The notes under the pieces were generated by a model that saw only the letters and a program-made list of their open reading frames with translations, was not told the DNA's origin and did not search any database. Positions 1,694-15,760 of a DNA stretch of 24,081 bases are shown piece by piece. Position 1 is the first letter of the stretch; the number at the start of each line of letters is the position of its first letter. The stretch is from positions 1 through 24,081 of the IMG/VR virus record IMGVR_UViG_3300031746_000169. One strand, given 5' to 3'. The position numbers and the translations under genes are program-made. Origin of the DNA: a virus.

Positions 1694-3553
1694 ATGAATC
1701 TATTTTCCATCAGTAATACTCTAGCAGACAAAACAAAATCAAAATTCGGTAAGAAAAAACCAGTTATAGCATCCAGGGTGGCTAATGCGGGAGTGGCGTA
1801 TGGTGTACTCGGTCCGACGCAAAGTCGAACATCATTTCAGGTTGCTGAATATAATCTTGGTGAAATATCCAAAGTCATGGATATTGAATCTTATGTTAAA
1901 CAGGCATTTAATAAACATGTTGAGCTCTGTTTGAAGGAAGGTTATGACATTACCTCTAGAAATGAGGATGCTACCTTTTACATAAAGAGAAGATTACGTG
2001 AAATAGCCGAAGTTTCAGGACTTACTTTCGATATGATACTAAGAAGCATAACCCAAAATTTAGTAGCTTATGCTAATGCCTTTCTGGTTAAAGTAAGGGA
2101 TTATAAGAGTTCTAGCGGGGCGCAGGTACAAAGGATCGCGGGGCCTTCTCTTGCTCCGGTTGCTGCTTATTTCCCCATGGATCCAACGTCTATAAGGATA
2201 AAAAGGGATTTTCACGGAAAGATACTTAAATATTGGCAAAGGATTCCGGGAAATCCCATAATGCCTCAGTTTATTACTGAAAATATCATCCATATATATT
2301 ATGACAAAAAAGAAGGATTTGCATTTGGTACTCCGTATATAGTTCCTGTTTTAGATGACATTAGATCACTTAGAAGGTTGGAAGAGAATATTGAGATGTT
2401 AATGACTCAACATCTTTTCCCGCTTTACCAATATATAGTTGGTACCGAAACTGCTCCGGCTGAAATATACGAAGATGGTACGAGTGAAGTTGACGTAATT
2501 AAACAGCAGATAGAAAAGATGCCCACCGAAGGAAGTATCGTTACTCCGGAAAGGCATGAAATAAGGAATCTTGGAGCCGAGGGTAAAGCTCTGGATGCGA
2601 CAAATTATCTAAAATATTTCGAAAGAAGGGTATTAGCCGGACTTGGTATCTCAGATATTGCACTCGGTAGGGGTGATACAGCTAATAGGGCTACAGCTAC
2701 TACAATAGATAAAGCGATGACTGATCGCTGTAAAGATTTTCAAGCGGTTATTGAGAATTTTGTCAACGAATTTATGTTTAAAGAACTTCTATTTGAAGGC
2801 GGGTATATAATTGATGAAAGTGAAGATAATTTTGTTAGGATCAAATTCCGTGAAATAGACATTGATTTTATGCTTAAAGTACAGAATCACTCCGTATTTA
2901 AATATGAACATCATTCTATTACTGAAACAGAGATGAGAGAAGAAATATCCAGAGATCCTATAGGAGATACCCAGCGCGAGGATATGTACTTTAAGAGAGT
3001 TGAAGAACCGAGATCGATTATTATGGCGAGAGATGAACCTTATACTGCTGCGGCAAAGGCCGCAGTGGGGGTTGGCAAAACCTCCCCATCTTCAGGTGTT
3101 AAAAAATTAGAAAAAGGTAAGAAGGCTACCGAGAATAGGGAAAAACCGACTAATCAGCATGGTACTAAGCCGGCAAAAACATCCCAAAAGAAAGATTATG
3201 AAACTGTATCTGCTTTATTGGACCATTTGTGGAATCTTACCAAATTAGACATAATCGATATGACAAAGGATTTCGAAGACTGGAAGAGTATGAACGTGGA
3301 AAAATTAAGACCTATAATTAATATTACCCATGATGAGATTAAGAAACAAACGGGTGGTCTTGGAATTGACCACGATATATTAAGAAATGGAATGGAAGAT
3401 ATTTTCAATGATTTGGGAGATCTTCTTTGTAAGAATATTAATAATACTGAAGTAAGAGGCGATTTGATTTTTATAATTTCTGGAGTTTTTGAATCTCTAA
3501 GATTTAGATTAAATGATCTATCGGAAAAAGTTATATTAGAACAGGAGGAGTGA
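1694..3553 (+). CDS. Portal protein
   Basis: The portal forms the dodecameric ring at one capsid vertex, through which DNA is packaged and the neck attaches. AGGGAGA (1681-1687) supports the start. The core has portal-family features. Residues ~40-130 run from a membrane-proximal-type start into long helices (VEYVK-like ESYVKQAFNKHVELC), with YANAFLVKVRDY near 125. A wing region ends in an IIHIYYDK strand (~200), followed by the stem helices. The block LGISDIALGRGDTANRATA (~316-334) and the following long helix are typical of portals. Length is 619 aa against roughly 450-550 for many portals: after about residue 450 there is a Lys/Pro/Thr-rich linker and then a ~110-residue helical domain rich in Asp/Ile/Leu. 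The next genes (protease, scaffold, capsid) are the expected neighbours. Confidence 0.85.
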   Translation: MNLFSISNTLADKTKSKFGKKKPVIASRVANAGVAYGVLGPTQSRTSFQVAEYNLGEISKVMDIESYVKQAFNKHVELCLKEGYDITSRNEDATFYIKRRLREIAEVSGLTFDMILRSITQNLVAYANAFLVKVRDYKSSSGAQVQRIAGPSLAPVAAYFPMDPTSIRIKRDFHGKILKYWQRIPGNPIMPQFITENIIHIYYDKKEGFAFGTPYIVPVLDDIRSLRRLEENIEMLMTQHLFPLYQYIVGTETAPAEIYEDGTSEVDVIKQQIEKMPTEGSIVTPERHEIRNLGAEGKALDATNYLKYFERRVLAGLGISDIALGRGDTANRATATTIDKAMTDRCKDFQAVIENFVNEFMFKELLFEGGYIIDESEDNFVRIKFREIDIDFMLKVQNHSVFKYEHHSITETEMREEISRDPIGDTQREDMYFKRVEEPRSIIMARDEPYTAAAKAAVGVGKTSPSSGVKKLEKGKKATENREKPTNQHGTKPAKTSQKKDYETVSALLDHLWNLTKLDIIDMTKDFEDWKSMNVEKLRPIINITHDEIKKQTGGLGIDHDILRNGMEDIFNDLGDLLCKNINNTEVRGDLIFIISGVFESLRFRLNDLSEKVILEQEE

Positions 3554-3554
3554 C

Positions 3555-3746
3555 ATGCCGGATATTAAAAATGGGGCACCTATGGGTCAAGGCGGGGCTG
3601 GAATAGGTCCATATGATCCCACAAAAGAACCAAGTATAGGAACTAGGTATTTTAAAGCTGTGCAGAAAGATTTGACCAAGAGATACGGGAAAAATGGGTT
3701 AGGTAAGAATCCCCCATATAAAAAAGGAAATAAGATTGCTACATAG
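3555..3746 (+). CDS. Small basic Gly-rich protein of the head module
   Basis: A 63-codon gene starting one base after the portal stop, with AGGAGG (3543-3548) inside the portal's last codons, so translation is coupled to the portal. The N-terminus is Gly/Pro-rich (MGQGGAGIGPYDPTKEP) and the C-terminus is strongly basic (KRYGKNGLGKNPPYKKGNK). There is no hydrophobic segment and no recognisable domain. The near-perfect ribosome binding site and the position between portal and protease argue that it is real and made with the procapsid. A small basic protein here could be a minor core or internal protein, but this is inference from place and charge only. Confidence 0.65.
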   Translation: MPDIKNGAPMGQGGAGIGPYDPTKEPSIGTRYFKAVQKDLTKRYGKNGLGKNPPYKKGNKIAT

Positions 3747-3772
3747 AATATAGTAATTTATAGGAGAGTACA

Positions 3773-5446
3773 ATGGCCAAATATTTAGAATTTACCGATA
3801 ACATATCAGTTAAATTGAAATTAAGGGATGAAAATAAGAAAGATATTCTTTCTGATTCTAGTCATGAAGTAAAGAGTGGTTATAGTTTAGTATGTGAAGT
3901 AAATGCAACTCATGCTGGGACTCTCATCAATAATAGAATTTATCCTCCGGAATCCATGAAGAAGGGTATCAAGACATGGGTTTCCCCATATAAAAAACCC
4001 GTATTGGTTAATCATGATGAAACAAGAGATCCAATCGGGAGAGTAATAGCCGCTAAATATCTTAAGACGGACAACGGAATAGCAGCTATTGATTATAAAC
4101 CCATATTAAGAGAAAGCGAGGGGTATGGATACCAAAGATTAACTATTAAAATAACGGATCCGGAAGCAATACAAAAGATTCTAGATGGGAGATATGAAAC
4201 GGTATCAGTAAGAATGTCTACTAATCATGCTTATTGCTCTATATGTAGCTCAGATTGGAGCGGAGAAGATGGACCATGCGAACATGCTCCCGGTACTAAA
4301 TATGATGGAAAACTAGCATATATAACTACTGGGGATCTTTCTTATAGGGAAATGTCTTTTGTAAATCTTCCAGCAGATGAATATGCTGGAGTTAAGGAAG
4401 CAATTATTTCCGAACATAAGGATACTTCGGAGATAAGCATGTATGCTAACAATGATTCCGAGAAGGTTCTTTCCGATCTTAGTGATGGTAACAATTTGTG
4501 GGCTTTAATTGACTCAGAGGCGGGAGAAAGTGATGATATTGTTACATATTTGCTAGATAAATCTAAGAATTCCAAGAAAATTGACAAGGAGGAAGATGTG
4601 AAACTCACAGAGATTACCAGAGAACAGTTACAGGACTCCGATTTGTTTAAACAAATGGTACAAGAGGAAATTGATAAAGTTAAAGCAGTAGCCTCAGAAG
4701 ATTGCAAAAAAGCTACGGCAAAAGCTGCAGAAGATTGCCAAAAAGCTGTCGAAGATTGCAAGGCTAAAATGGAAAAAATGAAAGATGATTTAGCTATAGA
4801 AGATGCTAAGAAAAAGAAAGAAGAACCGAAAGAGGAAGAAAAAGAAAAGGAAGAGGAAGAAACTGAAGAAGAAAAAAAGAAAAAGAAAGAAGAGGAAGAG
4901 GAGGAGGAAGATAAGAAGAAGAAAAGCGCTAAGGGCGCTCCTGTTCCTAAAGAACTCCCTGAAAATAAAGGAAGTGGTAAAACGGGTGGAGTAAAGCATG
5001 GAGCTGGCGGTCAGGCCCCGGTGGGTGAAGATCCCGGCGATGCTGTCATCCCCGAAGATAAGTTGAAAGAGTTAGAAGATGCAAATAGGAAAGTGTTAGA
5101 TGAAAATGTGAAGATTAACTCAGAGCTTCATAAAATGGTGGCTGAGAGATTATATGATCTCAAGAAGACACTCCGTAAACCTGAAGTTGTGGGCATTTCG
5201 ACCCCAGATGCGCGCAATGCTAAGGTTGAGGAGTTCGCTCAGAGAAGCATAGATTCTCTAAAGGATCAGATCAAGGACTTACTTATAGAGCAAGAGACTG
5301 CTCTAGCTACTGGATTAAATGGGCAAGATGTAGAGAATCCAGCTATTTCTCCGTCTGACTTGACCAATGAAGTCATGGAAGACAAGAAAAAAACCCGCGA
5401 GGGCAAGCAGGATACTCTAACACGTCTTTTCCCAAGATCCAAGTAG
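3773..5446 (+). CDS. Prohead maturation protease fused to scaffold protein
   Basis: The N-terminal ~215 residues are a prohead serine protease of the assemblin-like fold (HK97 gp4/T4 gp21 type). The motif NHDETRDPIGRV carries the candidate catalytic His81, and ETVSVRMST carries the candidate nucleophile Ser145, followed by EMSFVNLPADEYAGV. An insertion with C155, C158, C169 and H171 looks like a small zinc site. After a linker comes the scaffold part: a helix with regularly spaced cysteines (311, 322, 329), a Lys/Glu low-complexity tract (~346-384), a Gly-rich linker and a C-terminal coiled coil (~430-515). The protease cleaves scaffold and shell proteins after procapsid assembly. AGGAGAG precedes the ATG. 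An internal GTG at 4598 probably also yields scaffold alone. The low-complexity tract makes exact domain ends uncertain. Confidence 0.85.
   Translation: MAKYLEFTDNISVKLKLRDENKKDILSDSSHEVKSGYSLVCEVNATHAGTLINNRIYPPESMKKGIKTWVSPYKKPVLVNHDETRDPIGRVIAAKYLKTDNGIAAIDYKPILRESEGYGYQRLTIKITDPEAIQKILDGRYETVSVRMSTNHAYCSICSSDWSGEDGPCEHAPGTKYDGKLAYITTGDLSYREMSFVNLPADEYAGVKEAIISEHKDTSEISMYANNDSEKVLSDLSDGNNLWALIDSEAGESDDIVTYLLDKSKNSKKIDKEEDVKLTEITREQLQDSDLFKQMVQEEIDKVKAVASEDCKKATAKAAEDCQKAVEDCKAKMEKMKDDLAIEDAKKKKEEPKEEEKEKEEEETEEEKKKKKEEEEEEEDKKKKSAKGAPVPKELPENKGSGKTGGVKHGAGGQAPVGEDPGDAVIPEDKLKELEDANRKVLDENVKINSELHKMVAERLYDLKKTLRKPEVVGISTPDARNAKVEEFAQRSIDSLKDQIKDLLIEQETALATGLNGQDVENPAISPSDLTNEVMEDKKKTREGKQDTLTRLFPRSK
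4586..4600 (+). promoter_or_regulatory. Internal ribosome binding site and GTG start for scaffold
   Basis: AAGGAGG at 4586-4592, five nucleotides, then GTG in frame. It is as strong as the sites before the capsid and decoration genes and better than several genuine gene starts in this window. An internal site of this quality is unlikely by chance, although the underlying codons (Lys-Glu-Glu) are common in such linkers. Confidence 0.6.
4598..5446 (+). CDS. Separate scaffold protein from an internal in-frame start
   Basis: In frame with the protease-scaffold gene, codon 276 is GTG (4598-4600). It is preceded by a full AAGGAGG (4586-4592) at a 5-nt spacing. The product would be 282 aa beginning (M)KLTEITREQLQDSDLFKQM, which looks like a natural N-terminus and sits exactly at the border between the linker and the helical scaffold part. 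Lambda Nu3 and other phage scaffolds are made this way inside the protease gene, so the scaffold can outnumber the protease. An overlapping ATG at 4596 is immediately followed by TGA and codes for nothing. The site is seen in sequence; its use is inferred. Confidence 0.62.
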   Translation: MKLTEITREQLQDSDLFKQMVQEEIDKVKAVASEDCKKATAKAAEDCQKAVEDCKAKMEKMKDDLAIEDAKKKKEEPKEEEKEKEEEETEEEKKKKKEEEEEEEDKKKKSAKGAPVPKELPENKGSGKTGGVKHGAGGQAPVGEDPGDAVIPEDKLKELEDANRKVLDENVKINSELHKMVAERLYDLKKTLRKPEVVGISTPDARNAKVEEFAQRSIDSLKDQIKDLLIEQETALATGLNGQDVENPAISPSDLTNEVMEDKKKTREGKQDTLTRLFPRSK

Positions 5447-6301: not shown

Positions 6302-7606
6302 ATGGCAGATCAGAAAATGGAAATTACGGATGAACTAGTTGGTGCCGTAGCTGCCAAGGTGTTCGATAAAATCGGAGATAGAAAACCAGAATCCCGTAAA
6401 TATTTCTCAGATTCAAAGCTTCAGGAGAAATATGAGAATACGGAAAAAATCTGGATAAACAATGGTTTCGAGAATACCGAAGATCAATTTGATGTCACAA
6501 AGAAAGATCAAAAGATCGGGTTCAAGGAACTTTGTGATGCTCTTTCTACGCCCGACGCGTCAATTCTTATTGGTAAAGTTGTTTCCAATATAGTAAAGGA
6601 AGCGATCGAACCCTTGTTAGTAGGTACCAGCCTGTTGCATACCATCAGATTTTCTGCCGGACAACAGATTACTTTCCCCGCAGCGGGTGCTTTTACTGCT
6701 GAAGATATACCAGAAGGCGGAGAGTACCCGGAACGTAAATTAGAAGTAGCTGGTACGGTTACAGCGTTTATCGGGAAGTCTGGTGTTAAGGTAAGAATAA
6801 CTGATGAGATGCTCAGGTATTCGCAGTACGATGTAATGTCAATGCACATTAGGGCTGCAGGGCGCGCCCTAGCAAGACATAAGGAAACAAAGATCTTCAA
6901 TATGATCCGCAATGAAGGTGCTGTAACTTTTGACAACAATGTTGGTAACAAGCAGACTTCTGGTCGCGCGTCTGATGGTACTGGCAACGGAACCATTACT
7001 CTCGATGACTTGCTGGTCATGTACTCGAAGATTGTTACAAACGGTTTTGTTCCGAACGCGTTATTGATGAGTCCGCTTGGCTGGTTATTGTTCTCTCGTG
7101 ATCCGATCTTGCGTGCTTTTGGTTTCGCGAACGGCGGTCCGATGTTTGGTCCTATGCAGGGTCAGCCAGGTTTGGCTAAATCTTGGTATCAGGGCGGTAT
7201 AAACGTCGGTCCTGTTGCTAGCGCTCCTTATGCTGCAACGACATATGCTAATGTTCCTAACATGTTCCCTTCACCGTTGAGAGTTATTGTTAGCCCGTTC
7301 TTGTCATATACAGCGGCTGTTGGTGGTACCGCTGCAAAGACAGACATTATAATGGCTGATACCAATGAACTTGGTATAATTGTCATTGATGAGGATGTCG
7401 TTAACGAGGAATGGGATGATCCCAACAGAGATATCAGAACCATTAAGTTCCGCGAAAGATATGGTCTTGGTATTTTGAACGAAGGCAAGGCAATATCAGT
7501 TGCAAAGAACATTAGTATTACTAAAGCTTATGATCTCGAAGATAGGATTCGTTGGATGGCTAATACTGGTGGTGCACTTCCGACCGTTAACCAGACCGGT
7601 GTATAA
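6302..7606 (+). CDS. Major capsid protein, HK97 fold
   Basis: This 434-aa protein forms the icosahedral shell. AAGGAGG with a ~10-nt spacer supports the start. The N-terminal ~90 residues are charged and helical (KYFSDSKLQEKYENTEKIW), like the scaffold-like delta domain that prohead proteases remove. The HK97-type core follows: TLLHTIRF-like strand SLLHTIRFSAGQQITFPAAG, the E-loop region with EGGEYPERKLEV, the spine helix (YSQYDVMSMHIRAAGRALA), and the A-domain with LLMSPLGWLLFSRDP. The C-terminal part has EEWDDPNRDIRTIKFRERYG, characteristic of capsid proteins of large myoviruses. The C-terminus reads WMANTGGALPTVNQTGV, and a second copy of this motif lies in the same frame just after the TAA stop. 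Confidence 0.9.
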   Translation: MADQKMEITDELVGAVAAKVFDKIGDRKPESRKYFSDSKLQEKYENTEKIWINNGFENTEDQFDVTKKDQKIGFKELCDALSTPDASILIGKVVSNIVKEAIEPLLVGTSLLHTIRFSAGQQITFPAAGAFTAEDIPEGGEYPERKLEVAGTVTAFIGKSGVKVRITDEMLRYSQYDVMSMHIRAAGRALARHKETKIFNMIRNEGAVTFDNNVGNKQTSGRASDGTGNGTITLDDLLVMYSKIVTNGFVPNALLMSPLGWLLFSRDPILRAFGFANGGPMFGPMQGQPGLAKSWYQGGINVGPVASAPYAATTYANVPNMFPSPLRVIVSPFLSYTAAVGGTAAKTDIIMADTNELGIIVIDEDVVNEEWDDPNRDIRTIKFRERYGLGILNEGKAISVAKNISITKAYDLEDRIRWMANTGGALPTVNQTGV

Positions 7607-7609
7607 TTA

Positions 7610-7690
7610 ATGGACCCGGAGGCCATTATCATTTGGATTGCTGGAAGGGGTGGTTTACCTCCCATTGATCAAAGTGGTGTAGACGAATAA
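7610..7690 (+). CDS. Mini-ORF copying the capsid C-terminal motif (26 aa)
   Basis: An ATG three bases after the capsid stop (TAA TTA ATG) opens 26 codons ending in TAA at 7688. It is in the same frame as the capsid gene. Its residues 9-24, WIAGRGGLPPIDQSGV, match the capsid end WMANTGGALPTVNQTGV with one gap. About half of the aligned positions are identical and most others are conservative (M/I, V/I, N/D, T/S). The matching residues often use different codons (Leu CTT/TTA, Pro CCG/CCT, Gln CAG/CAA), which suggests an old duplication kept at protein level. No ribosome binding site precedes the ATG, so expression would need reinitiation after the capsid gene or read-through of its TAA. The homology is seen; expression is inferred. 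Confidence 0.5.
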   Translation: MDPEAIIIWIAGRGGLPPIDQSGVDE

Positions 7691-7696
7691 GAATGC

Positions 7697-7733
7697 TAGC
7701 TTGGGGCTGGGTTCACAGCCTGGCCCCAAGCTA
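7697..7733 (+). terminator. Strong hairpin after the capsid gene (possible attenuator or 3' stabiliser)
   Basis: TAGCTTGGGGC (7697-7707) and GCCCCAAGCTA (7723-7733) form a perfect 11-bp GC-rich stem with a 15-nt loop. No T-run follows (next bases TATATCTCG), so it is not a textbook intrinsic terminator. It could still pause RNA polymerase or protect the 3' end of the capsid message. It lies in the non-coding gap between the mini-ORF and the next gene's ribosome binding site. Confidence 0.55.
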
Positions 7734-14819: not shown

Positions 14820-15143
14820 ATGACAGAAAGTTTAGTTAAGGGTATTACCCAGGAATTAATCGAGGAATGGAGAGCTAAGTACGGAGAAATCTATTTAATA
14901 ACTCTTGGTGATGAACAGTTTGTGTATCGGCCATTAAAAAGATTCGAATATAAGACTATTATGGCTAATGCAGAGTCTACCAGGGCATTCAACGAAGAGA
15001 AAATCGTACAGATGTGCGTAGTCAATCCCGCTATAGATGTGACCAAATTGCCTACATTGAAAGCCGGAACAATCTCAACTCTTGTAGAACTCATTATGGC
15101 AGCTTCTAATTTTGGAATAACCGAAGAACCAGTTAAGCTCTAA
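14820..15143 (+). CDS. Tail assembly chaperone 1
   Basis: AGGAGGAAG precedes the ATG. The 107-aa protein lies between tube and giant genes, the place of gpG/gpGT-type chaperones that coat the tape measure during tail assembly. Its core (residues ~11-100) reads LIEEWRAKYGEIYLITLGDE, then QFVYRPLKRFEYKTIM, a Cys/Pro turn (CVVNPAID), then AGTISTLVELIMAASNFG. The W..KYG..Y....G....YRPL.R.EY pattern recurs in chaperone-type genes of large phages. The following gene is a longer paralog. The two frames are related as -1, but the gene ends in TAA with no slippery heptamer in the usable overlap. Confidence 0.65.
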   Translation: MTESLVKGITQELIEEWRAKYGEIYLITLGDEQFVYRPLKRFEYKTIMANAESTRAFNEEKIVQMCVVNPAIDVTKLPTLKAGTISTLVELIMAASNFGITEEPVKL

Positions 15144-15145
15144 AA

Positions 15146-15760
15146 ATGGAAGAGACGGTAGGGGATCAGCTAATATCCGAAGATTTGAAAAGATTCTCCG
15201 CTGATATACTTGAATGGAAGCAAAAATATTCCAATATCTATTATCTTAAGTTTGGAAGTCATGAATACATATTTAGACTATTGACTAAGGGGGAATATCT
15301 CGCCCTATATTTCATTCAGTTCCATATAAGTAGCGAGGCGGAGGATATTTTGCTAGATAGGTGTCTTCTGTACCCAACTATAAATCGAGAACAACGAGAT
15401 AATTTATTAGCCGGAGAGGTAATGACCCTTATAGATAAAATATTACTTTTATCCGGATTTTCTACTATTGATAATATTAAGACTGATCTTGATTCTGAAA
15501 GAGAAAAAATAAGATTGTTAGATAATCAGATAATTTTAATTATATGTAAGGCATTTCCTCATATTACCCCAACTGATATAGACAATTTCGATTATCCAAC
15601 CATATTACATTATGTATCTCTGGCGGAAGAACTAATAGGAACCAAGCTGGAGATCTCCAAGGTAGATACCAATAAAAATACAATAGACTTTGAAAAAGAC
15701 AATAGGGAGCAGGGATTTATTCAATCTGCATTTCCTAGGAATCCCAATGTCAAAAAATAG
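15146..15760 (+). CDS. Tail assembly chaperone 2 (longer paralog)
   Basis: The ATG lies two bases after the previous TAA (TAAAAATG) and has no ribosome binding site, so it is probably translated by reinitiation. Residues ~18-110 parallel the previous protein: ADILEWKQKYSNIYYLKFGS, HEYIFRLLTKGEYLAL, CLLYPTIN, AGEVMTLIDKILLLSGFS. The remaining ~95 residues form an extra helical domain with LDNQIILIICKAFPHITPTD and a charged tail. The pair resembles the short/long chaperone sets of other long-tailed phages, where the long form recruits tube subunits to the tape measure. Here they are separate homologous genes rather than one gene with a frameshift extension. Confidence 0.62.
   Translation: MEETVGDQLISEDLKRFSADILEWKQKYSNIYYLKFGSHEYIFRLLTKGEYLALYFIQFHISSEAEDILLDRCLLYPTINREQRDNLLAGEVMTLIDKILLLSGFSTIDNIKTDLDSEREKIRLLDNQIILIICKAFPHITPTDIDNFDYPTILHYVSLAEELIGTKLEISKVDTNKNTIDFEKDNREQGFIQSAFPRNPNVKK

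Follow-up and report, generated by a model that had tools for sequence, protein, structure and literature searches.

Evidence for a capsid-coupled micro-gene paralogous to the C-terminal arm of a viral major capsid protein

A short open reading frame (mini-ORF) that repeats the C-terminus of the major capsid protein lies directly behind the capsid stop codon in the window, the whole stretch of 24,081 nucleotides analysed here (IMG/VR record IMGVR_UViG_3300031746_000169), raising the question of whether it is a gene, an extension of the capsid or a relic. An earlier note on this DNA listed three possible outcomes of the duplication: a free peptide made by reinitiation, a minor read-through capsid protein with a doubled tail, and a dead remnant. 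Comparison with related viruses leaves us highly confident that the mini-ORF is a separate, selected and translated micro-gene; what its peptide would do is a more tentative matter.

The capsid gene, its arm and the second copy

The features of the locus in the window are as follows.

6302..7606, + strand: major capsid protein gene (HK97 fold, 434 aa), identified by Pfam, PHROG and AlphaFold-model matches
7532..7603, + strand: C-terminal arm, capsid codons 411-434, template of the duplication; pLDDT <50, aligns with the mini-ORF
7604..7609, + strand: capsid stop TAA, then the 3-nt spacer TTA up to the mini-ORF ATG; spacer of 2-5 nt in relatives, no SD
7610..7690, + strand: mini-ORF of 26 codons plus TAA, MDPEAIIIWIAGRGGLPPIDQSGVDE, micro-gene paralogous to the capsid arm; homologues, purifying selection
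7697..7733, + strand: RNA hairpin with a 17-bp stem and a 3-nt loop, right behind the mini-ORF; predicted by folding, z -5.2

The capsid ORF matched the Pfam family PF25209 Phage_capsid_4 (E 6.8e-19) and PHROG 3922, major head protein (E 7.5e-24), and its product ends in ...DLEDRIRWMANTGGALPTVNQTGV ahead of the TAA at 7604-7606. The AlphaFold model of the capsid, a weak one built on a 30-sequence alignment (mean pLDDT 66, pTM 0.60), found HK97-fold shells as its matches in the PDB (encapsulins, N4, T7 and HK97), while the sequence search returned no credible solved capsid structure. Because residues 411-434 have low confidence in this model (pLDDT near 40 and <50 throughout) and come shortly after the last core strand (398-405), the duplication template is a C-terminal arm outside the predicted capsid core; the low-confidence arm coincides exactly with the duplicated segment. 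Elsewhere in the window, 12640-13239 matches PHROG 9206, which is also labelled major head protein (E 5e-55); this gene follows the sheath gene and is tail-tube-like by position, and the label may be wrong.

The mini-ORF runs from an ATG at 7610 to a TAA at 7688-7690, and its residues 2-24 align with capsid residues 411-434, that is, over nearly the full peptide. The Smith-Waterman score of the window's mini-ORF against the capsid end is 50, against 16.1 +/- 3.7 for shuffled sequences, none of which (0/5000) reached 50; in each of the five genomes with a distinct mini-ORF the similarity covers most of the peptide and likewise 0/5000 shuffles reached the observed score. This bears out the second copy of the capsid C-terminal motif described in the earlier note and extends it, as D-x-E-x-x-I-x-W, upstream of the motif first noted, also aligns between capsid and mini-ORF. 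When the window and all fetched loci were scanned in six frames with a motif profile, scores >9 occurred solely at capsid ends and mini-ORFs, and the arm motif was not found elsewhere in the head genes.

Distribution, origin and loss

Searches of IMG/VR with the capsid returned 25 loci and an alignment search 39, with some contigs common to both (individual loci are labelled L001 and so on), and mini-ORFs were sought by reading all three frames downstream of each inspected capsid stop. Five further contigs, each from a different data set (IMG/VR prefixes 3300020074, 3300035698, 3300031578, 3300031673 and 3300037488), also carry the mini-ORF, giving five distinct sequences in all, the window included, with peptides of 24-28 residues. 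The homologues are the following.

L001: MVEIRIVWTSGCGGLPPIDQ, truncated by the contig end
L003: VDPRIIWTGGVGPLPVIDQSGVEEEER
L004 and L005: MAESRIVWVPGKGGLPFIDQTGVEDVKK, capsid DNA 99.8% identical
L018: MIVAKIVWISGVGGLPPIDQSGLE

In a capsid tree covering residue ~154 through the C-terminus, the window, L001, L002, L003, L004, L005 and L018 form a single clade, supported at 100/99. This small clade of uncultured phages comprises six distinct genomes, in five of which the mini-ORF lies directly behind the capsid stop, and it is absent from L002. No mini-ORF was found outside the clade among relatives whose capsid end was inspected. Degenerate DNA scans for the mini-ORF motif across the whole of IMG/VR recovered the clade's known loci only, and a search for further relatives via the downstream gene led to known contigs only. 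Neither tblastn with the peptide against the annotated phage collection (E 10) nor blastn with the region gave a match, and no capsid relative was confirmed in bacterial or archaeal genomes.

L002 is the sister of L003, with 84% nucleotide identity in the capsid gene, yet it lacks the mini-ORF; the hairpin behind the capsid unit is still common to both. The simplest history that the sequences suggest is one duplication of the last ~24 capsid codons in the ancestor of the clade and one loss in L002. Because L002 keeps a very similar capsid gene without it, the mini-ORF is accessory, dispensable in L002 and not required for assembly in general. Relatives with identical capsid genes and no mini-ORF had been named in the earlier note as evidence against its proposal, and L002 answers that description in part, its capsid gene being similar rather than identical. 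We do not claim that L002 lost its copy through recombination between the tails: MAFFT did align the end of the L002 capsid with that of the L003 mini-ORF, but the test was weak (p 0.09) and the L002 tail codons favour the L003 capsid (33/45 matches) over the L003 mini-ORF (21/45).

Several capsid genes among the relatives carry other irregularities. The gene is interrupted at codon 153 in L018 (2322-3000), L023 (2705-3000) and L019 (2318-3000), with an HNH-endonuclease-like ORF read in the inserts of L018 and L019, and a second insert near codon 180 in L018 (about 3090-3940) and L023 (about 3090-3950) contains a LAGLIDADG-like ORF. The inserts, which occupy identical sites in distantly related capsid genes, are probably self-splicing introns; those of L018, L019 and L023 had no match in Rfam at the gathering threshold. 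The capsid frame shift near codon 306 in L017 (about 3192) is probably an assembly or sequencing error.

Selection and divergence from the arm

Selection was assessed by comparing the amino acid identity of mini-ORF pairs with the identity expected from an equal number of randomly placed base changes. Observed identities were 0.55-0.76 against 0.26-0.44 expected under neutrality, with p <= 0.004 in all ten pairs, which are non-independent as they share a tree. The pooled differences fall 61/46/124 on codon positions 1/2/3, and dN between mini-ORFs is 0.19-0.40, with dS mostly saturated and beyond estimation; for the capsid gene, dS is 1.1-2.2 among the window, L001, L003 and L004, and 0.75 for L002-L003. 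By this sequence measure the mini-ORF is under protein-level purifying selection. The comparison of capsid 3' regions with dN/dS on the mini-ORF, proposed in the earlier note as a check, thus gave a result uniform in direction and not neutral, in support of its view of an old duplication kept by protein-level selection.

Arm and peptide share the signature W-x-x-G-x-G-x-L-P-x-[IV]-[ND]-Q-x-G-[VL] with few exceptions, namely one extra residue in the window's own capsid arm and T for P in the capsid arm of L018. Within this framework the peptides differ from the arm at fixed places: the residue preceding W is V/I in the five peptides and R in the clade's capsids, the residue preceding L is G/P against A, and the residue following P (tenth motif position) is P/V/F against T/S. 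Acidic residues extend beyond the terminal V/L in the four complete peptides (4/4), whereas the clade's capsids stop at V. Since V/I for R, P/V/F for T/S and the acidic end are consistent, these differences suggest a specialised role for the peptide and not mere extra dosage of the arm.

Translation mode and message

The start codon (four ATG, one GTG) follows the capsid stop by 2-5 nt in all five mini-ORFs, the spacing being 3, 5, 2, 2 and 5 nt in the window, L001, L003, L004 and L018, respectively, and thus of the size used to recognise reinitiation pairs. The reading frame relative to the capsid is 0 in the window and -1 in L001, L003, L004 and L018, such that the in-frame arrangement reported for the window holds there and is not a conserved trait (four of five distinct mini-ORFs depart from it). 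The absence of a ribosome binding site before the ATG was confirmed: the anti-SD duplex energy at the window's mini-ORF start is -3.0 kcal/mol, close to the random-site mean of -2.75, against -5.7 to -12.0 kcal/mol at 16 of 17 other window starts tested, the exception being 15146. Across the five mini-ORF starts the energies range from -5.6 to +0.4 kcal/mol, with a mean about that of random sites. Experiments with E. coli and Haloferax found termination-reinitiation to be efficient where genes overlap or lie very close together and nearly absent once the gap reaches about 20 nt; pairs coupled in this way are enriched for subunits of one complex (PMC10666635). Of the three outcomes in the earlier note, the free peptide made by coupled reinitiation is the one supported, by the short stop-to-start distance, the variable frame, the lack of an SD and the selection on the peptide. 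In the tail region of the window, the genes 14820-15143 and 15146-15760 are separated by a 2-nt gap and the second lacks an SD (-0.6 kcal/mol), apparently another termination-reinitiation pair and a precedent in the same genome.

The predicted hairpin behind the mini-ORF recurs behind the capsid unit of the relatives (z -3.8 in L003, -5.5 in L002, -6.5 in L005 and -4.1 in L018), lying between this unit and the next gene in all five folded loci. It is GC-rich, without an obvious U-run, and its sequence is little conserved save between L002 and L003; the Rfam scan of the window gave no match. Given this strong hairpin downstream of the mini-ORF, and of its counterpart unit in the relatives, the mini-ORF probably shares the capsid message, ahead of the hairpin.

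Proposed mechanism and alternatives

Two readings would deny the mini-ORF a product of its own. One holds that read-through of the capsid stop, or frameshifting at it, yields a minor capsid protein whose tail is doubled; it draws on the window's mini-ORF being in frame behind the TAA, on a -1 frame that in the other four genomes runs without a stop from the end of the capsid gene to the mini-ORF, and on the extended capsid forms of other viruses (Q-beta A1, T7 10B). However, no single mechanism serves both frames, and the start codon, needless for a fusion, is kept in all five. The -1 frame of L003, L004 and L018 is blocked by a stop five codons upstream of the capsid stop, with no slippery heptamer there or near the stop, and a -1 shift cannot serve the window, which makes frameshifting an unlikely route of expression as judged from these sequences. 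Read-through is rejected as a conserved route because four of the five mini-ORFs lie out of the capsid frame, although it may occur rarely in the window's genome alone; overall we regard a doubled tail as very unlikely. The other reading, that the mini-ORF has no function and is left over from a tandem duplication or from an earlier second capsid-like gene, would fit the loss in L002 and the very short length, but the remnant envisaged in the earlier note is contradicted by purifying selection, seen in each of the ten pairs although their synonymous sites are mostly saturated, by indels of codon size and by the retention of start and stop codons, and we consider it improbable in the extreme.

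For the separate micro-gene, the following course of events is proposed. Ribosomes finishing the capsid would, very probably, reinitiate across the 2-5 nt at the mini-ORF ATG or GTG without the help of an SD, and the capsid message would yield the peptide in a certain proportion to the capsid. With less certainty, the free peptide may be a trans-acting version of the flexible C-terminal arm of the capsid. As the arm signature is kept, it could dock at the arm's site, on a neighbouring subunit or on another head or scaffold component, a suggestion drawn solely from the shared residues. An unattached peptide in that site might adjust assembly by filling sites that lack an arm, for example at special vertices, or by holding the docking site until shell closure. 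We give this full statement, of a reinitiated micro-gene supplying the arm in trans to tune head assembly, an even chance of being correct. The proposal of a free arm paralogue of 24-28 residues, made from the capsid message and acting in trans on a docking site as an assembly regulator or an immunity decoy, is likewise finely balanced in our judgement.

Two other targets for a free peptide were weighed. As a decoy, it would soak up or block, without triggering it, a host sensor that recognises the capsid arm. Defences that sense newly made major capsid protein do exist, such as CapRel-SJ46 (PMC9712102), a gene present in most but not all clade members fits a host-dependent role, and the consistent departures from the arm sequence are compatible with a mimic that avoids triggering the sensor. 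However, co-expression with the capsid and not earlier would be late for this purpose, and the putative sensing of the arm, the host and a matching defence system are all hypothetical here; we consider the decoy unlikely. The peptide might instead target the prohead protease/scaffold (product of 3773-5446), inhibiting it or serving as a timing signal in head maturation. The head operon does contain such a gene (PHROG 18299, head maturation protease), and a peptide resembling the capsid end could occupy a binding site on the protease or core, but cleavage or binding of the capsid C-terminus by the protease is purely hypothetical, and this reading is, to us, quite unlikely.

With a selected micro-gene of this kind, a tiny part of a major capsid protein has become a gene in its own right. 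The capsid arm would thereby be marked, as far as conservation can tell, as a functional binding element, and the peptide offers a natural probe for shell assembly or capsid sensing. It also illustrates that open reading frames of <30 codons downstream of strongly expressed phage genes, passed over by annotation pipelines, can be genuine genes.

Comparison with known systems

Coat proteins extended by read-through or frameshifting are familiar from Q-beta A1, the luteovirus read-through domain and T7 gp10B. The locus described here resembles them in that additional coding sequence immediately follows the major coat gene on one message; their extensions are fused to the coat, whereas here the extra sequence has its own start, is mostly out of frame and repeats the C-terminus of the coat, and it does not lie consistently in the coat frame or in one reached by a conserved recoding site. 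Lambda Nu3, made from inside gene C, is likewise the C-terminal part of a head protein, expressed separately from a start of its own, but Nu3 starts inside its parent gene and is a whole scaffold protein, in contrast to the diverged duplicate of ~24 codons behind its parent found here. Genes 23 and 24 of T4 are adjacent capsid and vertex paralogues, and gene 24 is similar in being a major capsid paralogue directly behind the capsid gene; gp24 is a full-length protein, whereas here the tail alone is present, without the HK97 core.

The nearest annotated capsids, at 31-37% identity, are those of Bacillus KLEB27-3, Acinetobacter ME3 and Moorella MTATph1, which are large myophages like 0305phi8-36. 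Their head genes stand in a similar order, with the portal first and the capsid after two intervening genes, but neither the W..G.GALP.INQ.GV arm nor a mini-ORF behind the capsid is present in KLEB27-3, ME3 or MTATph1. Encapsulin cargo-loading peptides (EncA with the EncB targeting peptide, PDB 7s2t) offer a parallel, by analogy only, for a short peptide that docks on a shell with the HK97 fold, and the capsid model has encapsulins among its best fold matches; no sequence link between the peptides was seen. No counterpart of a duplicated capsid tail or a capsid-coupled micro-gene was found in the literature searched, the coverage of which was incomplete. Extended coats, head products from internal starts and capsid paralogues are thus kinds already known, and what would be new here is a free, diverged, arm-only copy coupled to the capsid gene.
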